Assembly: GCA_017518185.1 (NCBI GenBank)
Contig: JAFWWB010000089.1
Location: 1-59,455, forward strand
DNA from: Lachnospiraceae bacterium
GTDB taxonomy: Bacteria > Bacillota > Clostridia > Lachnospirales > Lachnospiraceae
Reading direction: 5' to 3'
DNA: 59,455 nt
The notes below the pieces were generated by a model. The model saw only the letters and a program-made list of their open reading frames with translations. It did not search any database and was not told the DNA's origin. Positions 7,174-53,162 of the stretch are shown one piece after another (the first letter of the stretch is position 1; each line of letters starts with the position of its first letter). The translations under genes were made by a program, and so were the position numbers.

Positions 7174-7191
7174 TAAGATTACGCAGGTTTA

Positions 7192-34885: not shown

Positions 34886-35941
34886 ATGAACAAGACTTTA
34901 AAGACTGTACTGCTGATAGCCATACCGGTTGTGCTCATCGCCGGCATTATCATAGTGAGGGCCATCGTGGAAAAAGCCCAGGAGATCCCGGATAACGCTC
35001 CTGATCTTTTCGGGAATACGGCGGGGAATCTTTATAACGGCGGTTCGTTCTGCGAGCATGAGGGGACCGTTTATTTTTCCAATCCCTATGACGGAGGCAG
35101 CATCTATGCCTTCGATACGAACCATGAGAATATGCGAAAGGTGATAACCGCGGATGCTTCCTTCCTGAATGCCGCCGGCGGTTATATCTATTATTTCTCG
35201 GCTTCCTCAGCCGGCCAGTCGGGACTGGGCTACGTCCGCGACGGACGCGGCGTGTACCGTGTTGACGATAAGGGGAAGCGTAACATCCTGCTGAACCGCT
35301 GCACCACGGACTCACTTCTCCTTCTCGGGAACAATCTGTACTATACTGATTTCGGCGAGGATGAGAAAAAGCCGGAGAATGCGGTGGTAAGGGTCAGCGA
35401 GGTATCCAAGGAGGGAGAGAGCGAAGGCTTTATCATAGATGACCATGTCAGGCTGGCCGCTGCATACAACGGCGAGATCTACTATGCGGCCATGACGGGA
35501 AACCATCATCTCTTTGCTTACAATCCTCTCACAGGCCAGTCAAGACAGCTGGGTGACTTTAATATGTATGAGCCCGTGGTACAGGGAAACGTGGTATACT
35601 TCCTGGATCTGGACGATGACATGCACCTGAAGAGCTGGTTCATAGGGGACAGCACCACCACCCTGATATCGGATGAACGTATAGAGACCTTTAACCTGTA
35701 CGGCGATACCATCTACTATCAGACAACTGCTGACTCGGGCTACTACTTCAAGAAGATACGTGTGGACGGCACCGGAGAGACCACACTGAAGGACGGCGTG
35801 GTGAGCAACATACAGGTGACTTCCGAGGGAGTTTACTTTACGGATTTCAATTCCGAACTGCCGCTGTACCGCATAGCCGCAGGAGGAAGCTCCATAATGG
35901 TATTCCAGGAAGCGGCGGATGCCGTCAGCCTGCCTGAATGA
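34886..35941 (+). CDS. Membrane-anchored beta-propeller protein (DUF5050-like)
   Basis: 351 residues. An N-terminal membrane anchor (VLLIAIPVVLIAGIIIVRAIV) is followed by about six repeats of the YY/YF-aromatic type: GTVYFSNPYDGGSIYAFD, GGYIYYFSAS, NNLYYTDFGEDE, GEIYYAAMT, NVVYFLDLDDDM, DTIYYQTTADSGYYF, GVYFTDFNS. This is the DUF5050 propeller pattern common in Clostridia surface proteins. It starts one base after folBK and ends overlapping the GH43 start (ATGA), so the transcription unit continues. Function unknown; ligand or sugar sensing outside the cell is a guess. Confidence 0.82.
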   Translation: MNKTLKTVLLIAIPVVLIAGIIIVRAIVEKAQEIPDNAPDLFGNTAGNLYNGGSFCEHEGTVYFSNPYDGGSIYAFDTNHENMRKVITADASFLNAAGGYIYYFSASSAGQSGLGYVRDGRGVYRVDDKGKRNILLNRCTTDSLLLLGNNLYYTDFGEDEKKPENAVVRVSEVSKEGESEGFIIDDHVRLAAAYNGEIYYAAMTGNHHLFAYNPLTGQSRQLGDFNMYEPVVQGNVVYFLDLDDDMHLKSWFIGDSTTTLISDERIETFNLYGDTIYYQTTADSGYYFKKIRVDGTGETTLKDGVVSNIQVTSEGVYFTDFNSELPLYRIAAGGSSIMVFQEAADAVSLPE

Positions 35942-37494
35942 TGAAGTACGATAATCCGCTGATCTACTGCGACTATTCCGACCCCGACGTTTACCGTGTG
36001 GGGTCGGATCATATTATGACGGCGTCAAGCTTTTGCAATGTTCCCGGGCTTCCCATACTGAAGAGCCGGGATCTGGTTCACTGGAAGCTTGTAGGCTACG
36101 CCCTAAAGAAGCTGCCGGACGAAAGCTACGCAAGACCAAGACACGGCTGCGGCGTATGGGCCCCGGCCATCAGATATCATAACGGTCTCTGGCATATCTG
36201 TTTTCCCATGCCCGATGAGGGCATATTCATGATCAGGGCAAAGGATCCCGCGGGCGAATGGTCCGAGCCCGTATGTTTATACAGAGGAGCGGGTTTTATA
36301 GATCCCTGCCCCTTCTGGGATGAGGACGGAAAGGCTTATCTGGTAAACGGAGTGGCCGCCTCGCGCATCGGTTTCAAGAGCAGGCTCTATATCACGCCGA
36401 TGGCTGAGGACGGCCTGTCGCTCACGGGTGAGACGAGGCTTGTTTATGACGGTACGGCCGACGGCAATATCACCGTGGAAGGGCCGAAGCTGTATAAGAG
36501 AAACGGATATTATTACATATTCGCGCCGGCAGGCGGGGTGAAATGTGGCTGGCAGGTCGTGCTGCGGAGCAGATATATATACGGCCCCTATGAGAGCAGG
36601 ATAGTCATGAAGCAGGGCAGCACCGGTGTGAACGGGCCCCATCAGGGAGCCTGGGTGGAGGAAGAGGACGGAAGCTCCTGGTTCATACATTTTCAGGATG
36701 TGTTCGCCGCAGGGCGGATAGTGCATCTGCAGCCGGTGGTATGGAAGGACGGCTGGCCGGTCATAGGAGAGCCGGTTGAGGGTGAGACCTGGGGTGAACC
36801 TGTAAGCGGAGGAGAGCTTCCCTGGGACAGTGATGAGCCTGCAGAGCCGGGAGGGCTTTCCGGCGACAAGGATCTGCCTTCTTTAGAATGGCAGTGGAAC
36901 GCAGCGCCGGGCGATGGCTGGGCACTGCCTGCAAAAGGCTGTCTCAGGCTTTCCGCACAGCCCTTCGCGGAACTGGCCGTGTGCGATATGCCAAACCTAC
37001 TTCTGCGTAAATGGGAGGCTCCCGAATTTGAAAAAGAGTTTGAGGCGGATATCACGGGGCTTCCGGAAGGCAGCATCTGCGGCATGGTGAGCCTGGGGAT
37101 ATCCTACGGCGGCATCATACTGGAAAAACGGAAGGACGGCATCATGGTACGCAGCCTTGAGGGCTTTATGGTCTTTGAGAATGAGAAGAGCCGGGCCTGT
37201 GAATCCCGTGAGCTGCTGGGATCCTGCGGCGGAAGCCGAGTAAGGATAAAGATGAAGGTGAGCAATGTAAACGGCGTGACGGCCATGTCGCCAAAGCCGG
37301 AATACGGCCTTGGAGATGAGGCAGTGGTCCTCCATCCCAGGGAAAAAGTGCGTTTCAGCGTGTATGCCGGGGACGGGAGCATGCTCGGCAGTTATTCTTA
37401 TCCCGCCAAAGCCGGACGCTGGGTAGGCGTAAAATACGGCTTCTTCTGCTGCGGTGAGGCCGGGGAGCTTCTGGTTAAGGAGGTTAAGCCATGA
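35938..37494 (+). CDS. Glycoside hydrolase family 43 protein (beta-xylosidase-like)
   Basis: 518 residues without signal peptide, so cytoplasmic. Five-bladed propeller with the GH43 triad: Asp in DYSDPDVYR (base), Asp in GFIDPCPFWDEDGKAYL (pKa modulator) and Glu in TVEGPKLYKRNGYYYIF (acid). HGCGVWAPAIRYHNGLWHI is a further landmark. The C-terminal about 200 residues form a beta-sandwich with GH43 C-terminal-like character. It probably cleaves xylose- or arabinose-containing oligosaccharides taken into the cell. Its ends overlap both neighbours by four bases. No transporter for its substrate is nearby. Confidence 0.9.
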   Translation: MMKYDNPLIYCDYSDPDVYRVGSDHIMTASSFCNVPGLPILKSRDLVHWKLVGYALKKLPDESYARPRHGCGVWAPAIRYHNGLWHICFPMPDEGIFMIRAKDPAGEWSEPVCLYRGAGFIDPCPFWDEDGKAYLVNGVAASRIGFKSRLYITPMAEDGLSLTGETRLVYDGTADGNITVEGPKLYKRNGYYYIFAPAGGVKCGWQVVLRSRYIYGPYESRIVMKQGSTGVNGPHQGAWVEEEDGSSWFIHFQDVFAAGRIVHLQPVVWKDGWPVIGEPVEGETWGEPVSGGELPWDSDEPAEPGGLSGDKDLPSLEWQWNAAPGDGWALPAKGCLRLSAQPFAELAVCDMPNLLLRKWEAPEFEKEFEADITGLPEGSICGMVSLGISYGGIILEKRKDGIMVRSLEGFMVFENEKSRACESRELLGSCGGSRVRIKMKVSNVNGVTAMSPKPEYGLGDEAVVLHPREKVRFSVYAGDGSMLGSYSYPAKAGRWVGVKYGFFCCGEAGELLVKEVKP

Positions 37495-39333: not shown

Positions 39334-41400
39334 TTGAACGATAATTCGGTCCGTAATCTCAGAAATCATAATACGGTAGTCTGGATCATCACGGTGGCCT
39401 GTATCGGGACCATTGCGGGGAGCACCACACTCGAATGGGAGCTGTGGGTGCATCCCCTGATAATCATCGGTCTCATAGCCACCTGGGTGTTGCATCTGAC
39501 CCGGCGCGGGACACCGGGCTTCCGGGAGAACTACTACCTTATCTTCACCATGCTCCTCTCTTTTTATCACGGGGTACATCCCAGCAGTTTTTATGATATC
39601 TACGTGATCTCGGCGCTGCTGATGGTCAACGTGACACTGTTCAGGCGTAAGGAATTCATCGTCCTTATGCTGGTTGAATTCTTTTTTCTTACCGCAGTCC
39701 AGATCTGGATGGGCATAGAGGCGGGAACCCTTATATTTGACAAGCTTACTGTATCGAGGATCACACTCCACATCGTTTCCGAGCTCTGCGTATTCAAGGG
39801 ACTCAGCACTGTTATCACGAATTATAAAAGGGATGGGGAAGAGCTTGAACGCAGGGATAACGAAAAGGAGATGCTGCGTTCGGAGATGGAGGATTTCCTG
39901 GTCAACATTTCCCATGAGCTGAGGACTCCCGTAAATGTTATCAACGGCATGTCTACCCTGATCCTGAAAGAGGAGGAGAGGAAGGATGTGATCGCTATCC
40001 GTGATGCGGGCCTCAGGCTTTCCAGCCAGATAGAGGATATACAGGACTACAGTGAGATACAGAGAGGCGGAGTGGTACTTGAGGAAGACAGGTACATGAT
40101 CACCTCGATACTCAATGATATAGCCGTTAATTTCAGGGTGCTGGGACGTTCCAGGGACCAGGAGCTGGTGATATATGTGGATCCCGATTTTCCTGCAGCA
40201 CTCAGGGGCGATGCCAGGAAGATCAGGAAGATTATCCGGCATCTGCTGGACAATGCCTTCAAATTCACCCCCAGGGGCGGTATCTTCCTGCGGGTAAGCA
40301 GCATAAAGCGTGATTACGGCATAAACCTCATCATAGAGGTCACGGATACGGGCATAGGCATGAGCGCCTCGGATGTGGAGAAGCTGTCCGCAGGTCTTTA
40401 CCAGGTGAACAAAAGACGCAACAGGAGCACCGGGGGCATAGGCCTGGGCCTTTCGATAGTGTACGGCTTTGCCAGGGCCATGAAAGGTTTCGTGACCATC
40501 GACAGCAAAAAGCACAGGGGCACAACGGTGAAGGTGAGCATAGCCCAGGAGGTGCTGGATCCATCACCCTGTCTCAGTGTAACGGGCGACAGGTTCATAA
40601 ACATGGTCATATATATGCAGATGACCATGAAACAGCAGCGGGGAGTAAGGGAATTCTACAGACGCGCAGCTGCTGATATGGCTGCCGGCCTGCGCATAAA
40701 TCTCTATTTCGCCGCTGACAGGGATGATCTGATGAAGATCATCGGCCGGGGGGATATCACGCATATCTTTACCGGGGAGGAGGAATACTCCCGGGATCCT
40801 GCTTTCTTTGATGAACTTGCCGAAGATGAGACAGAGGTGGCGGTGCTGGCTAAGTATGGTTTTTCTGTAAGACCCGGAAGCAGGGCGGTGGTGATGACCA
40901 AGCCTTTCTACTGCGGCCAGTTTGTCAAATTGTTAAGTGAGAGCAGCGGAGGCGGCCAGGGAGATAAGAGTATCCACGGGAAAAAGCTGAGTCTGGAGGG
41001 ACTGCATGCCCTGGTGGTGGATGATGAACCCATGAACCTGGTGGTGGCATCAGGTCTTTTCAAGGCATACCGCATGGTGATAGATACCGCAGAGAGCGGG
41101 AAGGAAGCTATCGAGAAATACCGCGCCGGCAGCTATGATCTTGTATTCATGGACCATATGATGCCCGAAATGGACGGAGTAGAGGCCATGAAGCGGCTCA
41201 GGGAAGTGTCCGAGGAGCGGCACGCCCAGGCAGCAGGCATGATAGCCCTCACGGCAAACGCCATAAGCGGCGCGAGGGATATGTTCCTCAGGGAAGGTTT
41301 TGACGGCTTTATCAGCAAGCCTGTAGACATCAACGATTTCGAAAGGGTAGTGGCGTCGGTCATCAACAAGACCGGTCTCCGGGAAGGAGGCAGGACGTGA
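39334..41400 (+). CDS. Hybrid histidine kinase HK1 (membrane, kinase, pseudo-receiver, receiver)
   Basis: 688 residues from a TTG (GGGGGATT upstream). About six membrane helices (residues 15-165) with no obvious sensor domain, then HisKA with NISHELRTP (His194), an HATPase with LLDNAFKFTPRGG, TDTGIGM and GGIGLGLSIV. Next is a degenerate receiver (about residues 415-530) where the phospho-Asp is replaced (ITHIFTGEEEY) though KPFYC is kept, then a true receiver with VVDDEP, phospho-Asp607 in FMDHMMP and SKPVD. There is no HPt. The architecture equals HK3 (47806) without its tail, so the two are paralogues. The next gene overlaps by four bases (GTGA). A phosphorelay needs an HPt from a partner, which HK2 supplies. 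Confidence 0.88.
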   Translation: MNDNSVRNLRNHNTVVWIITVACIGTIAGSTTLEWELWVHPLIIIGLIATWVLHLTRRGTPGFRENYYLIFTMLLSFYHGVHPSSFYDIYVISALLMVNVTLFRRKEFIVLMLVEFFFLTAVQIWMGIEAGTLIFDKLTVSRITLHIVSELCVFKGLSTVITNYKRDGEELERRDNEKEMLRSEMEDFLVNISHELRTPVNVINGMSTLILKEEERKDVIAIRDAGLRLSSQIEDIQDYSEIQRGGVVLEEDRYMITSILNDIAVNFRVLGRSRDQELVIYVDPDFPAALRGDARKIRKIIRHLLDNAFKFTPRGGIFLRVSSIKRDYGINLIIEVTDTGIGMSASDVEKLSAGLYQVNKRRNRSTGGIGLGLSIVYGFARAMKGFVTIDSKKHRGTTVKVSIAQEVLDPSPCLSVTGDRFINMVIYMQMTMKQQRGVREFYRRAAADMAAGLRINLYFAADRDDLMKIIGRGDITHIFTGEEEYSRDPAFFDELAEDETEVAVLAKYGFSVRPGSRAVVMTKPFYCGQFVKLLSESSGGGQGDKSIHGKKLSLEGLHALVVDDEPMNLVVASGLFKAYRMVIDTAESGKEAIEKYRAGSYDLVFMDHMMPEMDGVEAMKRLREVSEERHAQAAGMIALTANAISGARDMFLREGFDGFISKPVDINDFERVVASVINKTGLREGGRT

Positions 41401-44400
41401 AGCCTTTCAAAAAAATCAAAGCCCTGATATTAGATCAGGCCCGGGGGTTCCGGGAGAGAGTATTCGTGCTGCTGACCCTTATCGCCGTGGCAATGGCGGC
41501 GGTTGCCCTGACAGGTGACATACTGTTCGGTGAGAATGAGATCGAGATCATAACCCTTGCGGGGGCTGTCGTCTTTGTGCCTTTATTGACGATCATCGGT
41601 GTAAAGACAGGAAAAACCGAACTGATCTCCGGGCTGATATCCCTGGGTATCATATTTGTCATAATGCCCGTGATCTTTATATTCGGAGGAGGAGTCGAGG
41701 GCGGTGCGATCCCCTGGCTGGTATTTGCTTTCCTTTATCTCGGGCTTGTAATGACCGGATGGTGGAAGATCGCTTCCCTGATACTGATGACATCGGTGGT
41801 CTGTGTGCTCTTTTCGCTGGATTTCTATTTTCCCGACCTCATCTATCACCATTCAAGGCAGATGCTCTTTATAGATATGTCCCTGGGCGTTATAGAGGTG
41901 GGATTTGTCTGCTTCTTCATGACCTGGTTCCAGACCATGATGCTGGTCCAGGAGAATGAAAAATCCCGGAAGGAAACGGAAAAGGTTGAGGAGATGAACC
42001 GCTCGCAGAACAGGTTCTTCTCCAACATGAGTCATGAGATAAGGACACCCATCAATGCCATTCTGGGGCTGAACGAATTGATCCTGCGGCAGCAGGATGC
42101 TTCGGAGGAGATCATAAAGGATGCCAATAACATCCAGGGGGCCGGCAGGATGCTCCTCTCACTGGTAAACGATATACTGGATTTCTCCAGGATAGAAGCG
42201 GGAAAGATGGACATAGTTCCCGTGAACTACAACCTGGGTGTCATGGTTTCGGAGATCACCGAAATGCTGTGGCTCCGCGCAGAGAATAAGGGGCTGGAGT
42301 TCAGGGTTTTTGTGGATCCTTCCATTCCTGCCGAGCTTTACGGCGATGAAGTACGCATACGCCAGATACTGGTGAACCTTCTGAATAATGCGGTCAAGTA
42401 TACTGAGTCCGGAAGCGTTACCCTGAGCATAGATAAAGAGGAAACCAGGGATGATCTGGTCATGCTGACCTACTCCGTTGCAGATACCGGAACCGGCATC
42501 AAACAGGATGCAATCCCCTATCTTTTTGATGCCTTCAGCAGGGCCGATGAGGACAAAAATGCCGCCATCGAGGGCACGGGGCTGGGACTTTCCATCGTAA
42601 AGCAGCTGGTGGACCTGATGAACGGCAGCATCAGCGTGAACAGCGTTTACACCCAGGGATCCACCTTTACGGTGACACTGTGGCAGAAAGTGGCAAGGGA
42701 AGGCGCTGTCGGTGATATAAATATCGGAGGCGGCTCCGGCAGTAAAGAGAACAGGGGATACCGGCCGGGCTTTACCGCACCGGATGTCCGGCTGCTGATA
42801 GTAGATGATAATGAGATAAACCGTGAGGTGGAAAAGAAACTGCTGGAGGGCACCTGCATCAGCGTTGACACTGCATCCGGCGGAGAAGATGCCCTGACGA
42901 TGACACTGTCCACACGCTACGACCTGATCTTAATGGATCATCTCATGCCGCAGATGGACGGTGTAGAGTGCCTGCAGCGCATCCGTACACAAAAGGGCGG
43001 CATGTGCAACCACGCACCTGTGGTGGTGCTGACAGCCAATGCGGGAAGTGAAAACCAGGAGCTGTACAGGAACAGCGGTTTTGACGGATATCTCTTAAAG
43101 CCCGTTTCGGGAAGACAGCTGGAGGAGTCTGTCCTCTCCCACCTGCCGGAGGGAAAGGTGTCAAGAAATTCCGCTGAAGGCGCGGCATCCTACAGCATAA
43201 GCACAGCCAGCGGCTACAGCAGGAAGATCCCGCTGATCATCGCGACCAACAGCTGCAGCGAGATCCCTGCGGATATACTTAGGGAGCAGCAGATCGACAT
43301 CATACCCTACAATATCGCGGCGAACGGGAAAGTGTATTATGACCGGCTGGAGGCAGACACGGACGAACTGCTGAGATACAGGGCTGCGGGTGTTGATCTC
43401 CGGGCAGAGGCACCGACCGTGGAGGAACTGGAGCTCTTCTTCGGAAATGAACTGAAAAAAGCACATAATCTGCTGTACATAACACATTCAGCCCTGATAA
43501 GCAGCGAATACGAAAAAGCGGTGACCGCGGCGAAGGTTTACGGCAATGTGCGTGTCTATGACTCGGGCTCCGCGTCTGCGGGCGTTGGCGTGCTGGCGCT
43601 GTATGCCCGCAAGCTCAGCGCGGCAGGCCGGGATACCGACAGGATCATCGCGGAGCTGGATAAACTGAAGGAAAAACTGCGCTGCATATTTGCCGCCGAT
43701 AATATGGTCTTTGCCATGAAGGAAAGCAGGGGGGTGAGGGCCGCAGGAAATATCCTGAGCGTGCTGGGCATAAGGCCCTTTGTAAGGATACGGGACGGAG
43801 CTTTTGAGATAAGCAGACTGGCTATGGGAGAACAGGACAGCTGCCTCGGCACATTCCTGGATCATGCTTTCGGAGGCGTAGCCGAACCGGACTACGATCT
43901 GCTGATCGTATTACATACGGGGCTCAGTGACGAAGCACTGAAGACAGCCGAAAAAAGGATAAGGGAGAACAGGCCTTTTAAGAACGTGATCTTTATCAAG
44001 CCTTCGCCCGTCACTGCGCTTACAGTAGGATCTGGTTCCCTGGGGCTGGTATTCTTTGCCGGGGTAAAAGAGTCTCCTGCCCTCAGTTCCATGTTTGAAA
44101 CAAGTCTTTATGATGACTATACCGAAGAAGAGCCGGCGGAGGAAGAAAACACCGCAGAGGAAGAAAGCTCAGGGAAAGAATATGCAGAAGAAGAGCCGGA
44201 GGCGGAAACTGAAACAGCTAACCTCTGGTATGAGCGGATTGAGGGGATAAACGGTGAAAAGGGGATAAAGAACAGCGGCACCGAGGATTTCTACAGGACT
44301 GTGCTGGGTATATTCTGCGAATCCGTCAGCGAGAAAAAGGCGGAGCTTGAAGGCTTCTTTGATAACAGCGACTGGGAAAACTACACAATTAAGATACATG

Positions 44401-44852
44401 CGCTGAAGAGCTCGGCAAGACTCATCGGAGGGGATGCGCTGGCGGATGATGCACAGGCCCTGGAGAATGCCGGAAAAGCCGGTGATACGGACTATATAAA
44501 GGCAAACCACGAAAGAGCAATGACGGACTTCTGCGTACTTGACAGGCGGATCAGGGAAGCCCTGGGCATCCCGGAGGAAAAGGAAGAAGCTGCGCCGGAG
44601 CCTGTTCAGTCTGAGCCGGAAGTAAATGAACATTTTGACAGCTATCTCATCGAATGTGTATATGATGCCCTCAGGGAGGCTGTGGCAAACCGGGATGATA
44701 CGGTCATAGAGGAGACCTTCAGCGAGGTAGAGGGTTATCCCATGCCGGACGAGCATCTTGAGCGCATGGAGAAGCTGAAAAAATGCTTTGCGGAAGGTGA
44801 CCACTGGGGAATGATGGATCTGCTGGATGAAGAAAAGAAGTCTGAGGAGTAA
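41397..44852 (+). CDS. Hybrid histidine kinase HK2 with DegV-like lipid-binding domain and HPt
   Basis: 1151 residues from a GTG overlapping HK1. Six membrane helices, HisKA with NMSHEIRTPINAI (His213), HATPase with NLLNNAVKYTESG and GTGLGLSIVKQL, receiver with VDDNEINREV, Asp514 in LMDHLMP and LKPVS. Residues about 609-890 read as a complete DegV/FakB fold: ATNSCSEIPADIL (normally TDSxxDLP), ITHSALISSEYEKA, YDSGSASAGVGVLALYA, and the C-terminal GSGSLGLVFFAG. A Glu-rich linker leads to an HPt with HALKSSARLIGG (His1001) and a helical tail. DegV/FakB proteins bind a fatty acyl chain. A DegV domain inside a histidine kinase is rare in my knowledge. Paralogue of HK4 (50424), which lacks the HPt. 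Confidence 0.9.
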   Translation: MKPFKKIKALILDQARGFRERVFVLLTLIAVAMAAVALTGDILFGENEIEIITLAGAVVFVPLLTIIGVKTGKTELISGLISLGIIFVIMPVIFIFGGGVEGGAIPWLVFAFLYLGLVMTGWWKIASLILMTSVVCVLFSLDFYFPDLIYHHSRQMLFIDMSLGVIEVGFVCFFMTWFQTMMLVQENEKSRKETEKVEEMNRSQNRFFSNMSHEIRTPINAILGLNELILRQQDASEEIIKDANNIQGAGRMLLSLVNDILDFSRIEAGKMDIVPVNYNLGVMVSEITEMLWLRAENKGLEFRVFVDPSIPAELYGDEVRIRQILVNLLNNAVKYTESGSVTLSIDKEETRDDLVMLTYSVADTGTGIKQDAIPYLFDAFSRADEDKNAAIEGTGLGLSIVKQLVDLMNGSISVNSVYTQGSTFTVTLWQKVAREGAVGDINIGGGSGSKENRGYRPGFTAPDVRLLIVDDNEINREVEKKLLEGTCISVDTASGGEDALTMTLSTRYDLILMDHLMPQMDGVECLQRIRTQKGGMCNHAPVVVLTANAGSENQELYRNSGFDGYLLKPVSGRQLEESVLSHLPEGKVSRNSAEGAASYSISTASGYSRKIPLIIATNSCSEIPADILREQQIDIIPYNIAANGKVYYDRLEADTDELLRYRAAGVDLRAEAPTVEELELFFGNELKKAHNLLYITHSALISSEYEKAVTAAKVYGNVRVYDSGSASAGVGVLALYARKLSAAGRDTDRIIAELDKLKEKLRCIFAADNMVFAMKESRGVRAAGNILSVLGIRPFVRIRDGAFEISRLAMGEQDSCLGTFLDHAFGGVAEPDYDLLIVLHTGLSDEALKTAEKRIRENRPFKNVIFIKPSPVTALTVGSGSLGLVFFAGVKESPALSSMFETSLYDDYTEEEPAEEENTAEEESSGKEYAEEEPEAETETANLWYERIEGINGEKGIKNSGTEDFYRTVLGIFCESVSEKKAELEGFFDNSDWENYTIKIHALKSSARLIGGDALADDAQALENAGKAGDTDYIKANHERAMTDFCVLDRRIREALGIPEEKEEAAPEPVQSEPEVNEHFDSYLIECVYDALREAVANRDDTVIEETFSEVEGYPMPDEHLERMEKLKKCFAEGDHWGMMDLLDEEKKSEE

Positions 44853-44875
44853 GAGTTACAGGGAGGAATAGCATA

Positions 44876-45655
44876 GTGAACAACAGCGGAGTAAAAGTTG
44901 CGGTAATAGCATACCAGTTCAGTGTGGTGGTGAAGTCCATGGAAAAGGGCCTCAGGGATATGAATTTCGAAGTGACCCTTATGGACGATTCGGCGGATAA
45001 GATCCGTGCTGCCTTAAAGGAACTGGATGTGTTCATACTTTATCTGCCGGATTCCATACTTGACAGCTCGGACCGTATCAGGAAGCTTCTGCTCATCAGC
45101 GACTGCTTCAAGGACAATGAGCGCAACCTGATACTGATAGGGGCGGCAAATAAAAGGCTGGATATCGAAAAGACCGTGCCGGGGCTTAAGGAGGCCCCCT
45201 GGCTGGACCGTCCGGTGGATATGCATAAGCTGATAAAGGAGATCGAGATCGAAGCCGAGAACGCCAGGGATACCAGATCAAAGAAAAAAATACTCCTTAT
45301 CGATGATGACCCTTTCTTTGCCAGGATGGTCAGTGAATGGATGAAGGATGATTTCGAGACCGAGATGGTCACCGGAGGCATGCAGGGTATATCCTATATA
45401 GCAAACAATAAAGTGGATCTCATACTTCTGGATTATGAGATGCCCGTGGTGGACGGACCCAAGATACTGGAGATGCTCAGGGAGCTGCCCGAGACCTCAT
45501 CCATACCGGTGATCTTCCTTACCGGTGTGGGCACAAAGGAGAGCATAGCCAGGGTCATGGCGCTGAGACCGCAGGGCTACATACTGAAGACAGCCACCAG
45601 GGAAGAACTCATCGCTTCGATAAAGGGATTTTTTGAAAAACAGAGATACAGGTAA
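44876..45655 (+). CDS. Two-receiver response regulator without output domain
   Basis: 259 residues from a GTG after GGAGGAATAGCATA. The first about 130 residues form a receiver-like fold without the acidic pocket (VAVIAYQFSVVV; FILYLPDSI where the phospho-Asp would be; LDRPVD). The second is canonical: LLIDDDPFF, Asp186 in LILLDYEMPVVDG, LTG and LKT. No DNA-binding, enzymatic or other output region follows; it ends KGFFEKQRYR. It could be a phosphate sink, an adaptor, or the diffusible step between the four membrane kinases. Lies 23 bases after HK2 and 14 before the sensor gene. Confidence 0.88.
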   Translation: MNNSGVKVAVIAYQFSVVVKSMEKGLRDMNFEVTLMDDSADKIRAALKELDVFILYLPDSILDSSDRIRKLLLISDCFKDNERNLILIGAANKRLDIEKTVPGLKEAPWLDRPVDMHKLIKEIEIEAENARDTRSKKKILLIDDDPFFARMVSEWMKDDFETEMVTGGMQGISYIANNKVDLILLDYEMPVVDGPKILEMLRELPETSSIPVIFLTGVGTKESIARVMALRPQGYILKTATREELIASIKGFFEKQRYR

Positions 45656-45669
45656 GGCCGAGGTTTGTT

Positions 45670-47799
45670 ATGAAGTTCGGAAAGTTAACAAAAAACAGAA
45701 TAATCGCAGGGATATATATCATCCTTTTGATCGTTTTCTCTGTGTCTGTCATGATCGCCTGCAGGCTGTTCCTGCCGGATAACGAGGATGAGATCCTGGA
45801 TTTTTCCGAAGGCTGGACAGACGAAGACGGACGGCCCTGGAAGATAGACGATGCCAGGGAAAAAGATTTCGAAGGCGATGTCAGCCTTACGAAACAGCTG
45901 CCGGCGGATCTCAGTGACAGCGACAGCCTGTGTTTTGAATCCCTTAATACCTATTTCATGGTTTATGTGGACGGAAAGGCGGTATACGCATTTGCGCCGG
46001 AAAAAAATCTGACGGGAATGGGATACGGCATCAATTTTCACACCGTTCCCCTTGAGCAGGGCTATGCAGGAGCAGAGCTGAAGATAGTATTCTGCGGAGT
46101 AGACGATAAAACTCCCAGCTGCAGCATCATGAATGTAAAGATATGCACAGCCTGGGATTACATCCGTACCTATGTGCGCGGCAGCATATTCCCGGCGATC
46201 GTATCTTTTGTGGTCATGATCATTGGTTTTATAATGGCCGTTCTGTATTTCCGTATCCCTGACAAGGAGAACATGCCTTTCAATATCCTCGCTCTGGGAG
46301 TGACTGCCATCATAGTGGGAAACTGGCTGCTTGTGGACTCTAACGTCCCCATTCTCCTGACGGGACATATGAGCTTCTGGCGTGTCATAAACAGGACTGT
46401 GGTACTTACCATTCCGTATCCGGCCGTGCGTTTCTTTAATTCCATCACCAGGACAAAACGTCCCGGGTATGAATATATGGCGTTTTTCATATCACTCATT
46501 TCGATCCCTGCGGCAATCTGCATAAGGATCTTTGCCGGAGTGGATATGATGGTATCCTTCTTTCCCATACTGACCGTTATCATCATAGCGATGGCGGTGA
46601 TAATGGCGCTGATCTATCTCGACGATCAGCGTTACTGCCGGAAGAACGGGACAGCCACGGCCTTCAGGGAATATTATCCGGGAATGATCTGCCTTCTGGT
46701 ATGTATCTTCATCGATATTGTCATATTTTTCCTTCAGCTGAGGGTGAGGGTATCCTACGGAAACTTCAGCAGGATAGGGGCTGCGCTCTTTGTGCTGCTG
46801 ACACTTTTAAGCTTTCTCTCCTGGTGGACCAGGGACAGGGCTTCCATAGAGAAGGACCGTTTCATCAACCGGTCCATGCAGTATGCCATGTCTTCCGATA
46901 ACCCCGAGGACTGCATACGTTATATGCTGGATTATATGGGGAAGGAGCTGGAGACGGAAAGCGTGTCCATATTCGAGGATCAGGGGAACGGCCGTTTCCG
47001 TGTGACCTATGACTGGCATAGGGACGAACATAAGAGTAAGGGCAGCGATCTCTTATATCTTCCCTTCAGGGGCTTTGTGGATGAGTTTTACCGGTCCATT
47101 TCTCCCGAACAGCGGAGCCTGGTGATAAAGGATCCCGAGGAATACAGGACTTCAAGTCCCGGGCTTTATGAGCTCCTGAAAAAATATAAGGTTAAGACGC
47201 TGGTGGCAGGTCCGCTGGAGTATAACGGAAAGCTGAGAGCGGTCATCATCTTTCAGGATGCTCCCGTGGAGCTTCTGGATACCATAGCGGAGATACCGGG
47301 ACTGTCTTCTTATTTCCTTATCTCCATGCTGAGCCAGAAGGAAGAGCAGAAGAGACTTCAGTATTACAGCTATACCGATTCCCTTTCGGGAGCCCAGAAC
47401 CGCAGGGCTTTTACGGAGTATCTGGAGGACGGGCTGGATATGGCTTCACCCTTCGGCTATCTGGTCTGCAGTATCAGAGGCCTGGATCTGATAAATGCGG
47501 AAAAGGGATATGAAGCAGGCGATAAGCAGGTGGTCGAACTGGCTGACTGTCTGAAATTCATCTTCGGGGAAAAGCACGTGTACAGGATGGGAGGCGCGGA
47601 ATTCGCAGCCTTCGGCTTCGAGCTGGATGAGACCTTCTTTGATAATGATGTGGCCCGTATGAGAAAGCTGGCAAAAGAGAAAGAGATAAACCTTGCCATG
47701 GGCTCGGCATACTGCACAAACGGCACCATGAACATATCAGCGGTCATTGATCACGCATATGAGCGCATGAAGCGTGAAAAAGACAGGGAACGGAGATAA
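45670..47799 (+). CDS. 7TM sensor with GAF-like and degenerate GGDEF domain
   Basis: 709 residues. One membrane helix at residues 10-32, an outside domain of about 130 residues with the beta-pattern of 7TMR-DISM sensors (FESLNTYFMVYVDGKAVYAF), then about seven membrane helices (about 175-390), a GAF-like domain (about 405-560) and a GGDEF-family domain. The active site reads RMGGAEFAAF in place of GGDEF and the metal-binding D of the DxD/IDxFK segment is changed (CSIRGLDLINAEKGYE). It should not make c-di-GMP; it may bind GTP or a partner. It lies between two halves of the kinase cluster and ends six bases before HK3. Confidence 0.85.
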   Translation: MKFGKLTKNRIIAGIYIILLIVFSVSVMIACRLFLPDNEDEILDFSEGWTDEDGRPWKIDDAREKDFEGDVSLTKQLPADLSDSDSLCFESLNTYFMVYVDGKAVYAFAPEKNLTGMGYGINFHTVPLEQGYAGAELKIVFCGVDDKTPSCSIMNVKICTAWDYIRTYVRGSIFPAIVSFVVMIIGFIMAVLYFRIPDKENMPFNILALGVTAIIVGNWLLVDSNVPILLTGHMSFWRVINRTVVLTIPYPAVRFFNSITRTKRPGYEYMAFFISLISIPAAICIRIFAGVDMMVSFFPILTVIIIAMAVIMALIYLDDQRYCRKNGTATAFREYYPGMICLLVCIFIDIVIFFLQLRVRVSYGNFSRIGAALFVLLTLLSFLSWWTRDRASIEKDRFINRSMQYAMSSDNPEDCIRYMLDYMGKELETESVSIFEDQGNGRFRVTYDWHRDEHKSKGSDLLYLPFRGFVDEFYRSISPEQRSLVIKDPEEYRTSSPGLYELLKKYKVKTLVAGPLEYNGKLRAVIIFQDAPVELLDTIAEIPGLSSYFLISMLSQKEEQKRLQYYSYTDSLSGAQNRRAFTEYLEDGLDMASPFGYLVCSIRGLDLINAEKGYEAGDKQVVELADCLKFIFGEKHVYRMGGAEFAAFGFELDETFFDNDVARMRKLAKEKEINLAMGSAYCTNGTMNISAVIDHAYERMKREKDRERR

Positions 47800-47805
47800 G
47801 GCGGG

Positions 47806-50424
47806 ATGAACAGTAAAAACGAAGAAAAGAGAAGAAAAGACTTTTTCGGCGCATCCCATCTGATCATACTTGTCTGTTATACCATAATGTCCTTTGTCCT
47901 CGTCGGAGAGTCTTTTCTGCTGGGCTGGGAGACCTGGGCTCTGATACTTCTGGTAGCGGCCAATATCATCAGCTGGACCCTGCATATCAGGCAGTCGGTT
48001 CCCGTGAACACCAGGATATGGATATATGCCGTCTTTATCGAAGCAACCTCGTTTTTCTACGGTACCCATGTCACCAGTACCTTTGACCTGGGTTACCTTA
48101 TGGCCCTTATAATACTGATCTTCGTCTCCACCGGCATATCGGCACTTGTCACCATGAGCCAGATGACCTATTATCTGGCCTTTGCCTATGACATGTATCA
48201 GATGTACCGGGATGGCGAGGTTTTTGACAGTCTTCTCATTACCAGGGCAATGCTCCATATCGTCCTGATCACGGTAGTCGGGTATATCGCCCGCGCTATC
48301 ATCAACAAGTGGAACAGCATAATGAATGAATCCGAGGATGAAAAGGAGGCCCTTGCCGATGCGGCGGAGCGTCTCAATGATTTCCTTACCAATATTTCCC
48401 ATGAGCTCCGTACCCCTGTCAATGCCGTGACCGGTCTGACGGGGATCAGTATCGAAAGGGAGCAGGATGCGGAGATAAAAAAGAACCTTCTTATGGTCTC
48501 TGAGGCCGGCAAGAGGGTGGGAGATCTTATAGACGATATACTGGATCATTCCGAGATAGATATGGGTTCTGTCGTGGTGAACGAAGAAGAGTACATGCTC
48601 TCTTCGCTGTTAAATGACATGGTGACGGATATCGCATCCCGGAGAAAGCTTACGACGGAGCTGGTCATAGATGTGGATCCTACCATACCTTCCGTCATGA
48701 GCACTGATGTGGGCAAGCTGAAAAAGATACTCAGGCACCTGATTGACAACGGCCTGAAATATACCAGGGAAGGCGGCGTATATGTGCATATCACCGCCGA
48801 AGACCGGGAATACGGCATAAACCTGCTGATAGAGGTACAGGATACCGGTATAGGAATGAATGCGGAGGAACTGGAGAAAGTCTTCGACAGCTTTTACCAG
48901 GCGGATTCGGGACGTACCCGTTCCACCAGCGGACTGGGACTCGGTCTTTCCATAGTGAACGGCTTTACCACCAGCCTCAAGGGTTTCCTTACCATTGAGA
49001 GCGAGGAGGGAAAAGGGACTACGGTCCGGGTCAGCCTTCCCCAGAGAGTGGTGGATGCCGACAGCTGCATGAGCCTGGGGAGACCGGAGCGTCTCTGCAT
49101 AGGCGCGTATCTCCGCTTTGAGAAGTACCCGAATCCGCATGTCAGGGAGTTTTATAACTCCATGGTCAGGGATCTTGTTATAGGTCTTAACACCATCATG
49201 CAGAGAGCCGACAGCCTGGAAAGCTTCAAGCAGCTGGCAAAGGCAGGCCGCTTTACCCATGTTTTTGTAGGTAAGGAGGAGTACGAGGAGGATCCGGATT
49301 TCTTTGATGAACTGGCGGAAAGTACGCTGGTGGCAGTGGTGGCCGACCAGTCCTTCGTAAGACGCAAAGGATCGAACGTAAGCGTCATCCGTAAACCTTT
49401 CTACTGTTTCCCTGTCATATCCTTCCTGGATTCTGATATGGGCGATCTCAGGAGAGAGGAGGGAAGGCTAAGCGCGAAGGGTGTCAGGGCGCTGGTAGTG
49501 GATGATGAATACATGAACCACATGGTGGCCAGAGAGATCCTGGGCAGTTACGATATGACAGTCCTTACGGCCCTCTCCGGACCCGAGTCCATAAGGCTTC
49601 TGCGGGAAAAGGATGTGGACATCATCTTCATGGATCATATGATGCCCGGTATGGACGGCGTAGAGACAATGAAGAGGATACGTACGGAGCTTAGCCGGGA
49701 AAGAAAGGATGTGCCGATCGTTGCCCTCACGGCGAATGCGGTGAGCACGGCAAGGGAGATGTTCCTAAGGGAAGGCTTTGATGCCTTTCTGGCCAAGCCA
49801 ATAGAGATCATCGAGCTGGAGCGCGTATTGAAAAAGGTGCTGCCCAAGTCCCTGATAAGTGTGGATAAACAGGAACGGGAAGAGCAGGTCCCCGGGGATA
49901 AAGCCGGCGGAGAGCAGACAGAGGAGCTAAAGACAGAAGAGGTAAAGCCGAAGGAAGAGGAAAATGAGTTTCAGGCTCTGCAGGCCTTTGGGATAGATGT
50001 GAGCGCAGGCATTTCCTATTCAGGGGAAGACGCGGATTTCTATAAAGAACTGGTACTGCAGTATGCTTCCGAAGCCTCTATGAAGATAAAGAATACAGAA
50101 GCTTATCTGAAGGCCGGGGATCTGAAGAATTACGGTATACTGGTACATGCCGTTAAGAGTACCTCAAAGATGATAGGCGCGGCCCATATCTCCGAAGGGA
50201 TGCTGGAGCTGGAGAAGGCGGCAAAGGCCGGAGATGCGGAGTATGTCAGCGGAAATCATGCCGCTGTGATGGAGGAGTACAAAAAGACGGCGGAAGGCAT
50301 ACTGTCCTGCTTCGGAAAAACTCCTGAAAAAGAAACTGCCGGGGAGGATGACGAAGTGATGGAATTCGGCCCGGGAGATGATGACGAGGTAATGGAATTC
50401 GCTCCGGAAGGGGGTGAGGACTGA
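47806..50424 (+). CDS. Hybrid histidine kinase HK3 with pseudo-receiver, receiver and HPt
   Basis: 872 residues. Six membrane helices, HisKA with NISHELRTPVNAVT (His199), HATPase with LIDNGLKYTREGG and GLGLGLSIVNGF, pseudo-receiver (RFTHVFVGKEEYEEDPDFF; no Asp at the phosphorylation position, KPFYC kept) and receiver with VVDDEYMNHMVA, Asp610 in FMDHMMPGMDG and AKPIE. After an acidic linker, an HPt (about residues 735-855) with HAVKSTSKMIGA (His781). The last 25 residues are a short tandem repeat, DDEVMEFGPG then DDEVMEFAPE. It has the same layout as HK1 plus an HPt. Stop and HK4 start overlap by one base (TGATG). Confidence 0.9.
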   Translation: MNSKNEEKRRKDFFGASHLIILVCYTIMSFVLVGESFLLGWETWALILLVAANIISWTLHIRQSVPVNTRIWIYAVFIEATSFFYGTHVTSTFDLGYLMALIILIFVSTGISALVTMSQMTYYLAFAYDMYQMYRDGEVFDSLLITRAMLHIVLITVVGYIARAIINKWNSIMNESEDEKEALADAAERLNDFLTNISHELRTPVNAVTGLTGISIEREQDAEIKKNLLMVSEAGKRVGDLIDDILDHSEIDMGSVVVNEEEYMLSSLLNDMVTDIASRRKLTTELVIDVDPTIPSVMSTDVGKLKKILRHLIDNGLKYTREGGVYVHITAEDREYGINLLIEVQDTGIGMNAEELEKVFDSFYQADSGRTRSTSGLGLGLSIVNGFTTSLKGFLTIESEEGKGTTVRVSLPQRVVDADSCMSLGRPERLCIGAYLRFEKYPNPHVREFYNSMVRDLVIGLNTIMQRADSLESFKQLAKAGRFTHVFVGKEEYEEDPDFFDELAESTLVAVVADQSFVRRKGSNVSVIRKPFYCFPVISFLDSDMGDLRREEGRLSAKGVRALVVDDEYMNHMVAREILGSYDMTVLTALSGPESIRLLREKDVDIIFMDHMMPGMDGVETMKRIRTELSRERKDVPIVALTANAVSTAREMFLREGFDAFLAKPIEIIELERVLKKVLPKSLISVDKQEREEQVPGDKAGGEQTEELKTEEVKPKEEENEFQALQAFGIDVSAGISYSGEDADFYKELVLQYASEASMKIKNTEAYLKAGDLKNYGILVHAVKSTSKMIGAAHISEGMLELEKAAKAGDAEYVSGNHAAVMEEYKKTAEGILSCFGKTPEKETAGEDDEVMEFGPGDDDEVMEFAPEGGED

Positions 50425-53162
50425 TGGACAAGATACTCGATCTTTTGCTTCATCCCAAAAAGAATCCCCGGTATGAGGAGCTCAGGAGACAGGCGGTAAA
50501 TGATTTCCTGAAGACTTCGCTTTTAGTGTGTCCGCTGATATCCATAGCGGTCATACTCTTTATCGTGATGTCCTTCATATGGCCCGAATCCTACGGTGAC
50601 AGATCACTTCTTCTGGGATACAGGTATTCATACATGTTCATCCTGGCAGGGCTTGTTATCTATGAGATAGTATTACTGCTCATAGATAAAAGATTTAATG
50701 CCTTTTACGCCAGGATACCGGTGCTCAATGTCATGGCCCTCATGGTCCTGATGGGATGGAGCCTGTACATGATCATGCTGGACAGTTATTCCTACGGGAG
50801 GATAGAGCTTACACTGTATATGATCGTATCCTTCTGTATCCCCTTCTGTTTCTATCTGGATCTGCGCGTATATCTTCTCATCACCGCCGTATCGGATGCC
50901 TTCGTGGTATATCTTTTCTTGGCGGATGGGATCGATAAAGCTTTTAATGAGAGCAATCTCGGGGATTTCATCGTATTCATCGGCATACAGATCATACTGG
51001 GAACCATAACGATAAGCTTTAAGCATATAATGAGGGAACGTATCCTGGAGACCGAGAGCCAGAGCAGGGAGATACAGCAGCTCAATGAATCACAGAGCCG
51101 CTTCTTCTCCAACATGAGCCACGAGATAAGGACACCCATCAATACTATAATAGGCCTGAATGAGATGATACTCAGGCAGAATGCTTCGGAGGAGATAAAC
51201 GAAGATGCCAGGAACATCGAGGCGGCCAGCAAGATGCTGCTCCATCTCATCAATGACATCCTTGATATGTCCAAGTTCGAATCCGGGCAGATGAAGCTGA
51301 ACGTCGCACCCTATCATACCGGGGATATGCTTTCGGATATAGTCGGCATGCTGTGGATAAAGGCGAAGGAAAAAAACCTGGAATTCCACATTGATGTTTC
51401 GCCCGAGCTTCCTTCGGAACTCTACGGGGATGAGGTCCGTATAAAACAGGTGCTCATAAATGTCCTGAACAATGCCATAAAGTATACAAGCGAAGGCTCG
51501 GTGCGGCTTTCCATCCAGTGCGAGCGTGACGGCCTGGGAAACGCGGTGGTATCCTATTCGGTAAGCGATACCGGTATGGGTATAAGGAAGGAGAGCATAC
51601 CCCACCTCTTTACGGCCTTCAAACGTGTGGATGAGACCAAAAACCGTTACATAGAGGGAACGGGTCTGGGACTATCCATAGTAAAGAACCTGGTGGATCT
51701 TATGGACGGAAAGATCACCGTGAACAGCGTATATACCAAGGGCTCCACCTTTGTGATCGTGATCCCTCAGAAGATCGCCGTGGACGATCCCGTGGGTGAG
51801 CTGGATATGGAAAGCGGGCACAGGTCTGATAACAGCTATACTTATGTGGAGTCCTTTGAGGCTCCCGAAGGCAGGGTGCTGGTGGTGGATGATACCGCAG
51901 CAAACCTGATGGTGGTCACGAAACTCCTGAAGGAAACGAAGCTCACCATCGATACGGCATCCGACGGAAGCGAGGCCCTGAAGCGTACGCTGGAGAAGGA
52001 ATATCATGTCATACTCATGGATCATCTCATGCCGGGGATGGACGGTATTGAATGCCTCCACGCGATAAGAAAGCAGATAGGCGGCCTCTGCCATTCCTCA
52101 AAGGTGCTGGCGCTCACTGCAAATGCCGGCGGGGATATAGAGGCAATGTATGCAAGGGAAGGCTTTGACGGTTACCTTACAAAGCCCGTTACCGGTGAGG
52201 CTCTGGAAAAAGCAGTGTATAACCTGCTGCCCCGGGAGCTGATAACCGTGAGCAATACCTCACAGTCCATTGAGGAAAAGAGCGTTGACTGGATACATGA
52301 ACACAGGAAGAAACGTCCCGTCCGGGTAACCACCGGAAGCGTGGCTGATATACCTTCGGTCCTGCAGGAAAAACATGATATAGGCGTCATTCCCCACATA
52401 GTCAGGACGGGAGAGGGAGTATTCAAGGACGGTATCGAGATCGAACCCAGAGGCCTCCTGGCATACATGAGGGATAAGAATGCCAAAGTAGAAGCCATGC
52501 CGCCTACCCCCCTGCAGATGGAAAGGTTCTTTTCGAAGCAGCTTGACGCGGCAAACAATATCATTCATATATCCCTTACTGCCGGAGTGGAGAGCGGCGA
52601 ATATCCGGTTGCAATGGATGCGGCAGAGGATTTCGGAAATGTCACGGTCATTGATTCGGGACACCTCTCCAGTGGCCTGGGCCTTATGGCAATAGAGGCG
52701 GCAAGACTTGCCGAAGAGGGCTATATGACAGATGAGATAGTAGAAGCGATGGAGCGTATGCGGGGGCATATCCATACCAGCTTTATCGTGGATACACTGG
52801 AGTTCCTGGTGAGGGCAAAGCATGTGGGCAGCCGTATGGGAAGACTGGCTGATGCCTTCATGGTCCACCCCGTAGTCTCCCTGAAAAAGGGCCGCATGAA
52901 GGTCTCAGGGGTTTATTTCGGCACCAGGGAGCGTGCATGGGAACGCTATATCTCCTCGGTGTTCAACGTGCCGGGAAAAATAGACCGCAGGATGCTCTTC
53001 ATCACCTATGTGGGCATGACCACAAAGGAGCTGGAGAAGGTCAGGCAGATGGCGGAAAAGAAGATGCAGTTCGATGAGGTGTTCATACAGAAGGCCTCGC
53101 CAAGTATAGCAGCAAGCTGCGGCCCCGGAACCTTCGGACTGCTGTTTTTCACCGAATATTGA
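50424..53162 (+). CDS. Hybrid histidine kinase HK4 with DegV-like C-terminal domain
   Basis: 912 residues. Five or six membrane helices, HisKA with NMSHEIRTPINTI (His233), HATPase with VLNNAIKYTSEGS and GTGLGLSIVKNLVDL, receiver with VVDDTAANLMV, Asp533 in LMDHLMPGMDG and TKPVT. Residues about 631-912 are a DegV-like domain: VRVTTGSVADIPSVL (TGS for the usual TDS), HISLTAGVESGEYPVA, DSGHLSSGLGLMAIEAARLA, VDTLEFLVRAKHVGSRMG and the closing CGPGTFGLLFF. The DegV part is nearer the family than in HK2. No HPt; the HPt of this pair is on HK3. A paralogue of HK2. Confidence 0.9.
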   Translation: MDKILDLLLHPKKNPRYEELRRQAVNDFLKTSLLVCPLISIAVILFIVMSFIWPESYGDRSLLLGYRYSYMFILAGLVIYEIVLLLIDKRFNAFYARIPVLNVMALMVLMGWSLYMIMLDSYSYGRIELTLYMIVSFCIPFCFYLDLRVYLLITAVSDAFVVYLFLADGIDKAFNESNLGDFIVFIGIQIILGTITISFKHIMRERILETESQSREIQQLNESQSRFFSNMSHEIRTPINTIIGLNEMILRQNASEEINEDARNIEAASKMLLHLINDILDMSKFESGQMKLNVAPYHTGDMLSDIVGMLWIKAKEKNLEFHIDVSPELPSELYGDEVRIKQVLINVLNNAIKYTSEGSVRLSIQCERDGLGNAVVSYSVSDTGMGIRKESIPHLFTAFKRVDETKNRYIEGTGLGLSIVKNLVDLMDGKITVNSVYTKGSTFVIVIPQKIAVDDPVGELDMESGHRSDNSYTYVESFEAPEGRVLVVDDTAANLMVVTKLLKETKLTIDTASDGSEALKRTLEKEYHVILMDHLMPGMDGIECLHAIRKQIGGLCHSSKVLALTANAGGDIEAMYAREGFDGYLTKPVTGEALEKAVYNLLPRELITVSNTSQSIEEKSVDWIHEHRKKRPVRVTTGSVADIPSVLQEKHDIGVIPHIVRTGEGVFKDGIEIEPRGLLAYMRDKNAKVEAMPPTPLQMERFFSKQLDAANNIIHISLTAGVESGEYPVAMDAAEDFGNVTVIDSGHLSSGLGLMAIEAARLAEEGYMTDEIVEAMERMRGHIHTSFIVDTLEFLVRAKHVGSRMGRLADAFMVHPVVSLKKGRMKVSGVYFGTRERAWERYISSVFNVPGKIDRRMLFITYVGMTTKELEKVRQMAEKKMQFDEVFIQKASPSIAASCGPGTFGLLFFTEY

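Follow-up and report, generated by a model that had tools for sequence, protein, structure and literature searches.

DegV domains on paired hybrid histidine kinases of Lachnospiraceae: candidate ligand-binding subunits of proposed two-kinase phosphorelays with a single HPt

The window, i.e., the whole stretch of 59,455 nucleotides analyzed here, is one contig (C70) of a 3.3 Mb genome of a Lachnospiraceae bacterium assembled in 92 contigs. GH9 with CBM3 and GH43 enzymes are encoded at 26145-28463 and 35938-37494, from which the host can be read as probably being a fiber-degrading bacterium. At 39334-53162 lie six genes on one strand (+), in the order HK1, HK2, a receiver protein, a GGDEF membrane protein, HK3 and HK4. 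The genes and the individually delimited domains within them are as follows:

39334..41400, + strand: HK1, membrane hybrid kinase HisKA-HATPase-REC (Pfam), the A-type partner of HK2
41397..44852, + strand: HK2, membrane hybrid kinase HisKA-HATPase-REC-DegV-HPt, 1151 aa, the B-type partner (Pfam: HisKA 204-269, HATPase 316-429, REC 467-579, DegV 615-887, Hpt 969-1029)
43239..44057, + strand: DegV domain of HK2, residues 615-887 (PF02645, E 3e-35)
44265..44561, + strand: HPt of HK2, residues 957-1055 by our own profile and 969-1029 by Pfam (PF01627, E 2.4e-7)
44876..45655, + strand: response regulator with a single Pfam receiver (residues 139-249)
45670..47799, + strand: membrane protein with a C-terminal GGDEF domain (PF00990, E 1.5e-10)
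47806..50424, + strand: HK3, membrane hybrid kinase HisKA-HATPase-REC-HPt (Pfam), the A-type partner of HK4
50424..53162, + strand: HK4, membrane hybrid kinase HisKA-HATPase-REC-DegV, 912 aa, the B-type partner (Pfam: HisKA 224-288, HATPase 335-450, REC 485-598, DegV 633-910)
52320..53153, + strand: DegV domain of HK4, residues 633-910 (PF02645, E 2e-41)

Pfam matches and motifs identify the elements of a hybrid histidine kinase, namely the HisKA H-box, the HATPase and a receiver with the DD, D and K residues; in an alignment of 52 REC-DegV sequences, HK2 and HK4 among them, the receiver positions D10, D11, D54 and K108 do not vary. A simple hydropathy scan recovers 6 hydrophobic stretches at the N-terminus of HK2. 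The start of HK2 overlaps the final 4 bases of HK1, and that of HK4 overlaps HK3 by 1 base. Inspection for the HPt relied on Pfam and on our own profile, whose seeds are the HPts of HK2 and HK3; neither detects an HPt in HK1 or HK4, while the HPt of HK3 scores 21.8 bits with Pfam, under the cut-off of 24.6, and 110 bits with the profile of which it is itself a seed. A Pfam search of the receiver protein at 44876-45655 found no output domain. The GGDEF protein situated between both kinase pairs carries the motif GGAEF as opposed to GGDEF or GGEEF, and is for this reason perhaps non-catalytic.

A preliminary description of this DNA had held that HK2 and HK4 continue past their receivers into a full-length DegV domain, a claim that is borne out in both position and kind. 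The PF02645 match spans profile positions 4-278 of 280 in HK2 and 2-279 of 280 in HK4, with scores of 122.3 and 142.6 bits, respectively, against a curated cut-off of 27; NCBIfam TIGR00762 is likewise passed (131.3 and 160.1 bits against a cut-off of 99.7), and Pfam places DegV together with HisKA and REC in both proteins. The solved chains matching the two domains are DegV/FakB proteins, with 2dt8 best for both; chains named FakB1 are also among the matches, as is 4x9x (MW1315), the S. aureus FakB2. The altered first signature, also pointed out previously, is indeed present as TNS in HK2 and TGS in HK4 where TDS would be expected. Across 86 fused relatives the Asp column of this signature holds D in 45, E in 20, S in 13, T in 4, G in 2, A in 1 and N in 1; hence, N and G are rare at this position and do not constitute a family trait. 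The same genome additionally encodes a third HK-REC-DegV protein on contig C2 (locus L138), a separate and complete FakA of 545 aa with three domains, and 5 standalone DegVs. The components of its ordinary fatty-acid kinase system are thus available apart from the kinase-linked domains.

Relatives were gathered by scanning a species-genome collection with HK4, and the best 80 of 448 were kept, as 79 loci; having been chosen by score, they are biased toward the full architecture. The term fused is used here for a DegV match within an open frame of more than 700 aa, some of which leave a simple kinase pattern unmatched (e.g., L035 and L136). The relative that best matches HK4 (69% identity) is labeled Lachnospiraceae, and by record label the kept relatives are mostly Lachnospiraceae, many of them from the rumen, along with Oscillospiraceae, Eubacterium, Treponema and one Bacteroides. 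Most derive from metagenome assemblies, with bin labels taken as given. A genomic survey of the HK-REC-DegV order had been proposed as a check, and this architecture does recur in dozens of loci, among them contigs of Butyrivibrio sp. VCD2006, Butyrivibrio sp. MC2021 and Anaerotruncus colihominis JM4-15. With an alignment of 52 DegV-domain sequences (A2) as the query, an even draw of 150 genomes from the host family contained 41 frames of at least 700 aa with this type of DegV, distributed over 28 genomes and counted by frame length. Among 299 genomes drawn from across the phylum, for which the best 8 candidates per genome were scored and low-ranking matches could escape, such frames were present in 3 genomes among the matches listed, i.e., the window genome and two others, all of the host family.

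Examination of the genomic neighborhood covered 89 fused genes, from which 6 with less than 600 bp of upstream sequence were set aside. In 78 of the remaining 83, a kinase lies directly upstream on the same strand, as in the HK1-HK2 and HK3-HK4 pairs of the window. This upstream kinase overlaps or touches the fused gene in 58 of the 78 cases, is no more than 60 bp away in 77, and scores best against HK1 or HK3 in 74. Those lacking it either have an opposite-strand neighbor (L018, L054, L154) or are preceded only by short ORFs (L032, L033); for both of the latter a contig end is at most 1.4 kb away, and the short ORF of L032 carries an HPt. Two loci, L036 and L055, contain tandem HK-REC-DegV genes, which are followed by another kinase with an HPt.

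The distribution of the HPt across these pairs follows a simple rule: each pair has one, located on either partner. Our HPt profile was applied to 71 fused genes preceded on the same strand by a gene of at least 600 aa; by this measure, the HPt is found upstream only in 54, on the fused protein only in 14, on neither in 3 and on both in none; a further 16 fused genes have no such upstream gene in view. When the tree rows are considered along with 8 other kinase-linked forms (see below), the 78 operons comprise 58 with the HPt upstream only, 17 with it on the DegV side only, 3 with neither and 0 with both, such that 75 of 78 conform. The cases with neither are L036 and L055, in which the fused gene is the second of a tandem and an HPt protein is encoded directly downstream, and L138 of the window genome. 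In the last of these (contig C2, minus strand, about 6629-7262 of the locus), an HPt sequence follows in frame after a stop codon in an acidic linker, which could represent a genuine division of the protein, a nonsense mutation or an error in the sequence. Few independent switches underlie the rule: the location of the HPt changes 4 times on the tree, and of 3 independent pairs 2 behave as expected and 1 is without difference, which is not significant.

The association of this DegV type with kinases is not confined to fusions. Unfused cases were sought among high-scoring short frames, including in 397 genomes of the family, and their numbers are therefore lower bounds. In at least 4 genomes (L139, L140, L157, L158), an unfused DegV is encoded directly downstream of an HK-REC-HPt kinase, and those of L139 and L140 are the short-frame DegVs scoring nearest to the fused ones; L157 and L158, like L159-L161 below, come from the 397 genomes, for which the context of ten loci was inspected. 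In L159 and L160, a kinase without an HPt precedes a DegV-HPt protein, with the qualifications that the Hpt of L159 falls under the Pfam cut-off and that the L160 kinase is judged HPt-free by our own profile only. L161 (1808-6544, minus strand) encodes a 1578-aa protein in which DegV comes first and is followed by Cache, HisKA, HATPase, REC and Hpt (Pfam), and which adjoins a second kinase and a gene of the REC-HD-GYP type. Finally, in L156 the second kinase and DegV are in different frames. These 4 unfused, 2 DegV-HPt and the L156 and L161 versions, the last of which is also fused, make up the 8 other kinase-linked forms.

A tree was computed by quick maximum likelihood, with SH-aLRT supports in place of bootstraps. 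A single clade of 96 rows (SH-aLRT 99) takes in all the kinase-linked DegVs; within it, L139, L140, L157 and L158 diverge outside a subset of 92 rows (support 97), and L159, L160 and L161 group together on a separate branch (support 97). The HK2 domain sits on a long branch. The fused label requires 2 changes on the tree, one of them forced by supported branches, such that the fused form may have arisen once or more than once. The relatives branching outside the fused forms have one kinase and an unfused DegV, without a second kinase. As the unfused forms lie outside the fused group, the kinase-DegV association appears to be older than the fusion, and, judging from the same sequences, the second kinase looks optional. 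In the nearest standalone outgroup (L121-L130; loci L144-L153), a kinase tag based on a crude motif was found in 0 of 10 loci.

The residues of the characterized FakB proteins provide a framework for evaluating the ligand site. According to work on FakB1 (PMC8892158, PMC9136124), the carboxylate of the fatty acid is engaged by a network of Thr62, Ser95, Ser171 and His270, whereas Arg173 is required for phosphorylation by FakA and not for exchange, and Arg205 is key for binding both FakA and the bilayer. Three segments form the top of the fatty-acid tunnel of FakB1, and the FakB-related domain of FakA is described as lacking them (PMC9136124, as far as available). These sites were aligned to FakB2 positions 61, 93, 168, 170, 202 and 266, using the numbering of 4x9x from the start of the chain; site 95 of FakB1 was taken as the later Ser of the SSGLSGT motif (S93 of FakB2), and the tunnel segments were transferred between the two numberings via a small offset. 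The counts exclude duplicates, the incomplete rows L060 and L064, and L005, L111 and L133, which are odd or sit on long branches; the DegVs of L119 and L120, which lie beside kinases, are not counted as standalone.

The sharpest difference concerns the docking arginine: site 202 is R in 44 of 45 standalone DegVs, whereas R or K is found there in 0 of 86 fused relatives, with F, M, I, V or L in 80 of them, and no R occurs in any of the 8 other kinase-linked forms. At site 266, the His seen in 41 of 45 standalone versions gives way to Asn in 71 of 86 fused relatives and in all 8 of the other kinase-linked forms. One of the standalone DegVs encoded by the window genome, L005, itself lacks R202 and H266, and its omission thus flatters the contrast; in a count that precedes the row exclusions, with L119 and L120 left aside, the standalone figures are 45 of 48 for R202 and 42 of 48 for H266. 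The remaining sites are retained to varying extents in the standalone, fused and other kinase-linked forms, respectively: S/T at site 61 (45/45, 68/86, 8/8), S at site 93 (43/45, 58/86, 7/8) and R at site 170 (45/45, 43/86, 5/8). The commonest residues at sites 61, 93 and 266 among the 86 fused relatives are S, S and N, and the tunnel-building segments are filled in all 86. Further, certain conserved loops, which we presume to lie at the head-group end of the fold, are better conserved than the rest of the domain (mean entropy 1.54 versus 2.01), with 9 of 270 circular shifts being as extreme.

With respect to this signature, HK2 and HK4 themselves are, by their sequences, poor examples of the site of the family. 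Sites 61, 93, 170, 202 and 266 are A, S, H, F and S in HK4, and A, S, R, M and T in HK2; hence, in place of the carboxylate network Thr62-Ser95-His270 of FakB1 one finds A-S-S and A-S-T, and the docking arginine is replaced by F and M, respectively. The third protein of the genome, L138, has S, S, Y, M and N, and thereby conforms to the family pattern at 61 and 266. As HK2 and HK4 belong to the 8 of 86 fused relatives with neither Ser/Thr61 nor Asn/His266, a free fatty acid is least certain as the ligand in these particular copies. The preliminary description had likened the domains to FakB, which presents its fatty acid to FakA. One part of this comparison stands, in that a genuine DegV/FakB-type domain resides on a membrane hybrid kinase. 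The other part, a resemblance to a FakB able to serve FakA, is not supported, because neither R nor K occupies the docking position in any fused relative, and the loss of R170 in many of them points the same way. In addition, the unit seems to extend beyond a single protein, to a pair of kinases with one HPt.

An inspection of neighboring genes in 91 loci revealed an association with cyclic di-GMP signaling. GGDEF, HD-GYP or EAL domains are encoded by 33 of 137 genes adjoining the pair, as compared with 7 of 275 genes five or more positions away (Fisher p 2e-11, with related loci counted as independent). The search seeds were drawn from eight of the same loci; setting these and the window aside gives 25 of 119 versus 6 of 243 (p 1e-8, loci again as independent). 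Such a gene is adjacent in 32 of the 91 loci, and in the other 59 none is detected by the seeds, in some on account of contig ends. Neighbors confirmed with Pfam include REC-HD proteins in L156, L141 and L159, REC-GGDEF proteins in L158, L160 and L140, and a single protein with REC, GGDEF and HD in L155; in L073 an EAL protein is encoded directly downstream. REC-only proteins like that at 44876-45655 occur near HK2-type genes elsewhere (L070, L079, L162). A search across the loci for a conserved neighboring effector turned up none shared by all; EAL, REC-only, MCP, DUF6976, Na:Ala symporter, DeoC and SBP_bac_3 proteins each occur in subsets. The DUF6976 protein (L086 6892-7857, Pfam) belongs to a cluster of 8 genes from 8 loci, positioned 1-2 genes downstream of the fused kinase, and the sodium:alanine symporter (Pfam, on L085) to a cluster found in 10 loci, mostly 1-2 genes downstream.

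Other DegV proteins were also observed. L133 (1596-3398) encodes a 601-aa protein combining Dak2, a FakA-like middle domain and a C-terminal PF02645 DegV, which by its domain content is possibly a fatty-acid kinase and its carrier in one chain. A 620-aa protein in L135 (1468-3327) couples a HAD-hydrolase domain to a standalone-type DegV, and in a 580-aa frame of L132 (2820-4559, minus strand) DegV occupies the second half, the first being without a Pfam match. L010 (3713-4630) is a standalone DegV.

Beyond the domain make-up, operon pairing, single HPt, common clade, changed residues and unfused versions, all of which are seen directly in the sequences, the interpretation we favor strikes us as about evenly poised between right and wrong. 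It holds that HK1-HK2 and HK3-HK4 are two-kinase phosphorelays, in which DegV is a FakB-derived, resident ligand-binding subunit rather than a fatty-acid carrier. Under this proposal, the two kinases of each pair would form a complex, and DegV would sample a ligand that is amphipathic and probably acyl, at the inner face of the membrane or close to it. Its occupancy could then alter autophosphorylation or phosphotransfer through REC and the single HPt, with the phosphate passing to a nearby response regulator, which in many relatives might be a REC-GGDEF or REC-HD-GYP protein. In the window, the receiver protein at 44876-45655 is a possible acceptor for the HK1-HK2 pair. Weighing against this interpretation are the changed sites 61 and 266 of HK2 and HK4, the long branch of HK2, the small number of independent HPt switches, the treatment of related loci as independent in the cyclic di-GMP comparison along with the 59 loci in which no adjacent gene of that kind was detected, the GGAEF motif of the GGDEF protein in the window, and the three fused genes that have an opposite-strand neighbor where a partner kinase would be expected.

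The position of DegV could also be understood in the opposite sense, with phosphorylation of the receiver switching lipid binding or release by DegV as an output domain, so that the kinase controls a lipid pool instead of sensing it. Response regulators usually carry their REC immediately ahead of a C-terminal domain, and this order holds in HK4 and other HPt-less fused proteins. However, DegV has no receiver on its own chain in at least 6 loci (4 unfused, 2 DegV-HPt), the HPt comes after DegV in HK2-type proteins, and the arginine for docking FakA is lost; we consider this reading unlikely. The apparent precedence of the association over fusion, together with a seemingly optional second kinase, leads us to read DegV as part of the pair and not as the output of one receiver. 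Alternatively, DegV might bind no ligand at all and serve as a structural module, dimerizing or joining the A-type to the B-type kinase. The steady link to a partner kinase would fit such a role, as would the loss of Arg202, the half loss of Arg170 and the altered sites of HK2 and HK4. Nevertheless, the greater conservation of the presumed head-group loops (1.54 versus 2.01), N266 in 71 of 86 and the tunnel segments in 86 of 86 speak against it, and we regard it as improbable to much the same degree as an output function.

A function closer to that of the classical carriers, i.e., a FakB feeding FakA that has been placed on a kinase for regulation, could be raised given the shared fold family and the presence of FakA in the genome. 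This is disfavored and appears very improbable: the docking arginine is absent in 86 of 86, R170 is kept in just 43 of 86, and 5 standalone DegVs are available for the role. As most relatives come from metagenome assemblies, it might also be supposed that the genes are chimeras of assembly or annotation; this has a negligible chance of being correct and was rejected, since the same architecture recurs in dozens of loci, the Butyrivibrio and Anaerotruncus contigs included.

To our knowledge, the inputs of most kinases of gut and rumen Lachnospiraceae are unknown. The DegV kinases offer a hypothesis for such an input, a lipid-like ligand, along with defined residues to examine. The sequence evidence suggests that they could constitute an undescribed route for a lipid-like signal into the signaling of gut bacteria. 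Should DegV indeed bind lipid, it would represent a new class of kinase input linking membrane or environmental lipids to cyclic di-GMP, and this in bacteria whose habitat contains dietary fats and volatile fatty acids. More tentatively, and with rather more doubt than confidence, one may envisage a carrier of the FakB type recruited as a kinase subunit, initially as a neighboring gene and subsequently through fusion to an HPt or a second kinase, yielding an acyl receptor that sets cyclic di-GMP. In rumen and gut Lachnospiraceae, this would be a counterpart of the DSF-Rpf circuit built from unrelated sensor parts. The natural variants (unfused, DegV-HPt, and fused with or without HPt) allow the parts to be separated, and tandem kinases with a single HPt make shared phosphorelays directly testable.

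In terms of known systems, FakB1 and FakB2 of S. aureus resemble the present domains in the full-length DegV, the tunnel segments and, in 68 of 86 relatives, Ser/Thr61. Unlike them, the domains described here are on or beside a histidine kinase, have lost the docking Arg, mostly have Asn in place of His266 and keep Arg170 in half of the cases. BarA, TorS and ArcB share the HisKA-HATPase-REC core, and the HPt has its equivalent on one member of most pairs; their families are among the best NCBIfam matches, far under the cut-offs, but here a DegV domain is present and two adjacent kinases have one HPt between them. The activity of S. aureus SaeRS requires the fatty-acid kinase, for which an intracellular pool of free fatty acids has been invoked (PMC5539427); however, the available part of that paper mentions no DegV on the kinase. 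In the accessible portions of PMC3146951, PMC9912610, PMC12688256, PMC3091722 and PMC9145396, DegV and kinase or receiver terms appear only separately. A search of the open-licence literature found no report of a histidine kinase bearing a DegV domain, with preprints outside the scope and such an absence being no proof; within that literature, this agrees with the earlier remark that no described system of this design was known. Thus, the parts are known, while their combination, the logic of the operons and the signature of residues seem not to have been described before.

The nearest functional parallel, by analogy, is DSF-RpfC. RpfC has the order REC-HPt, and its partner RpfG is a REC-HD-GYP protein. 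In Xanthomonas, DSF, which is a fatty acid, binds RpfC directly, and sensing is mediated by a 22-residue N-terminal region (PMC5391125, as far as available). Both RpfC and the DegV kinases are membrane hybrid kinases, and many of the latter adjoin a REC-HD-GYP or other cyclic di-GMP regulator. The two systems differ in that RpfC uses an N-terminal sensor whereas a DegV domain is found here, and in that two kinases are present here.
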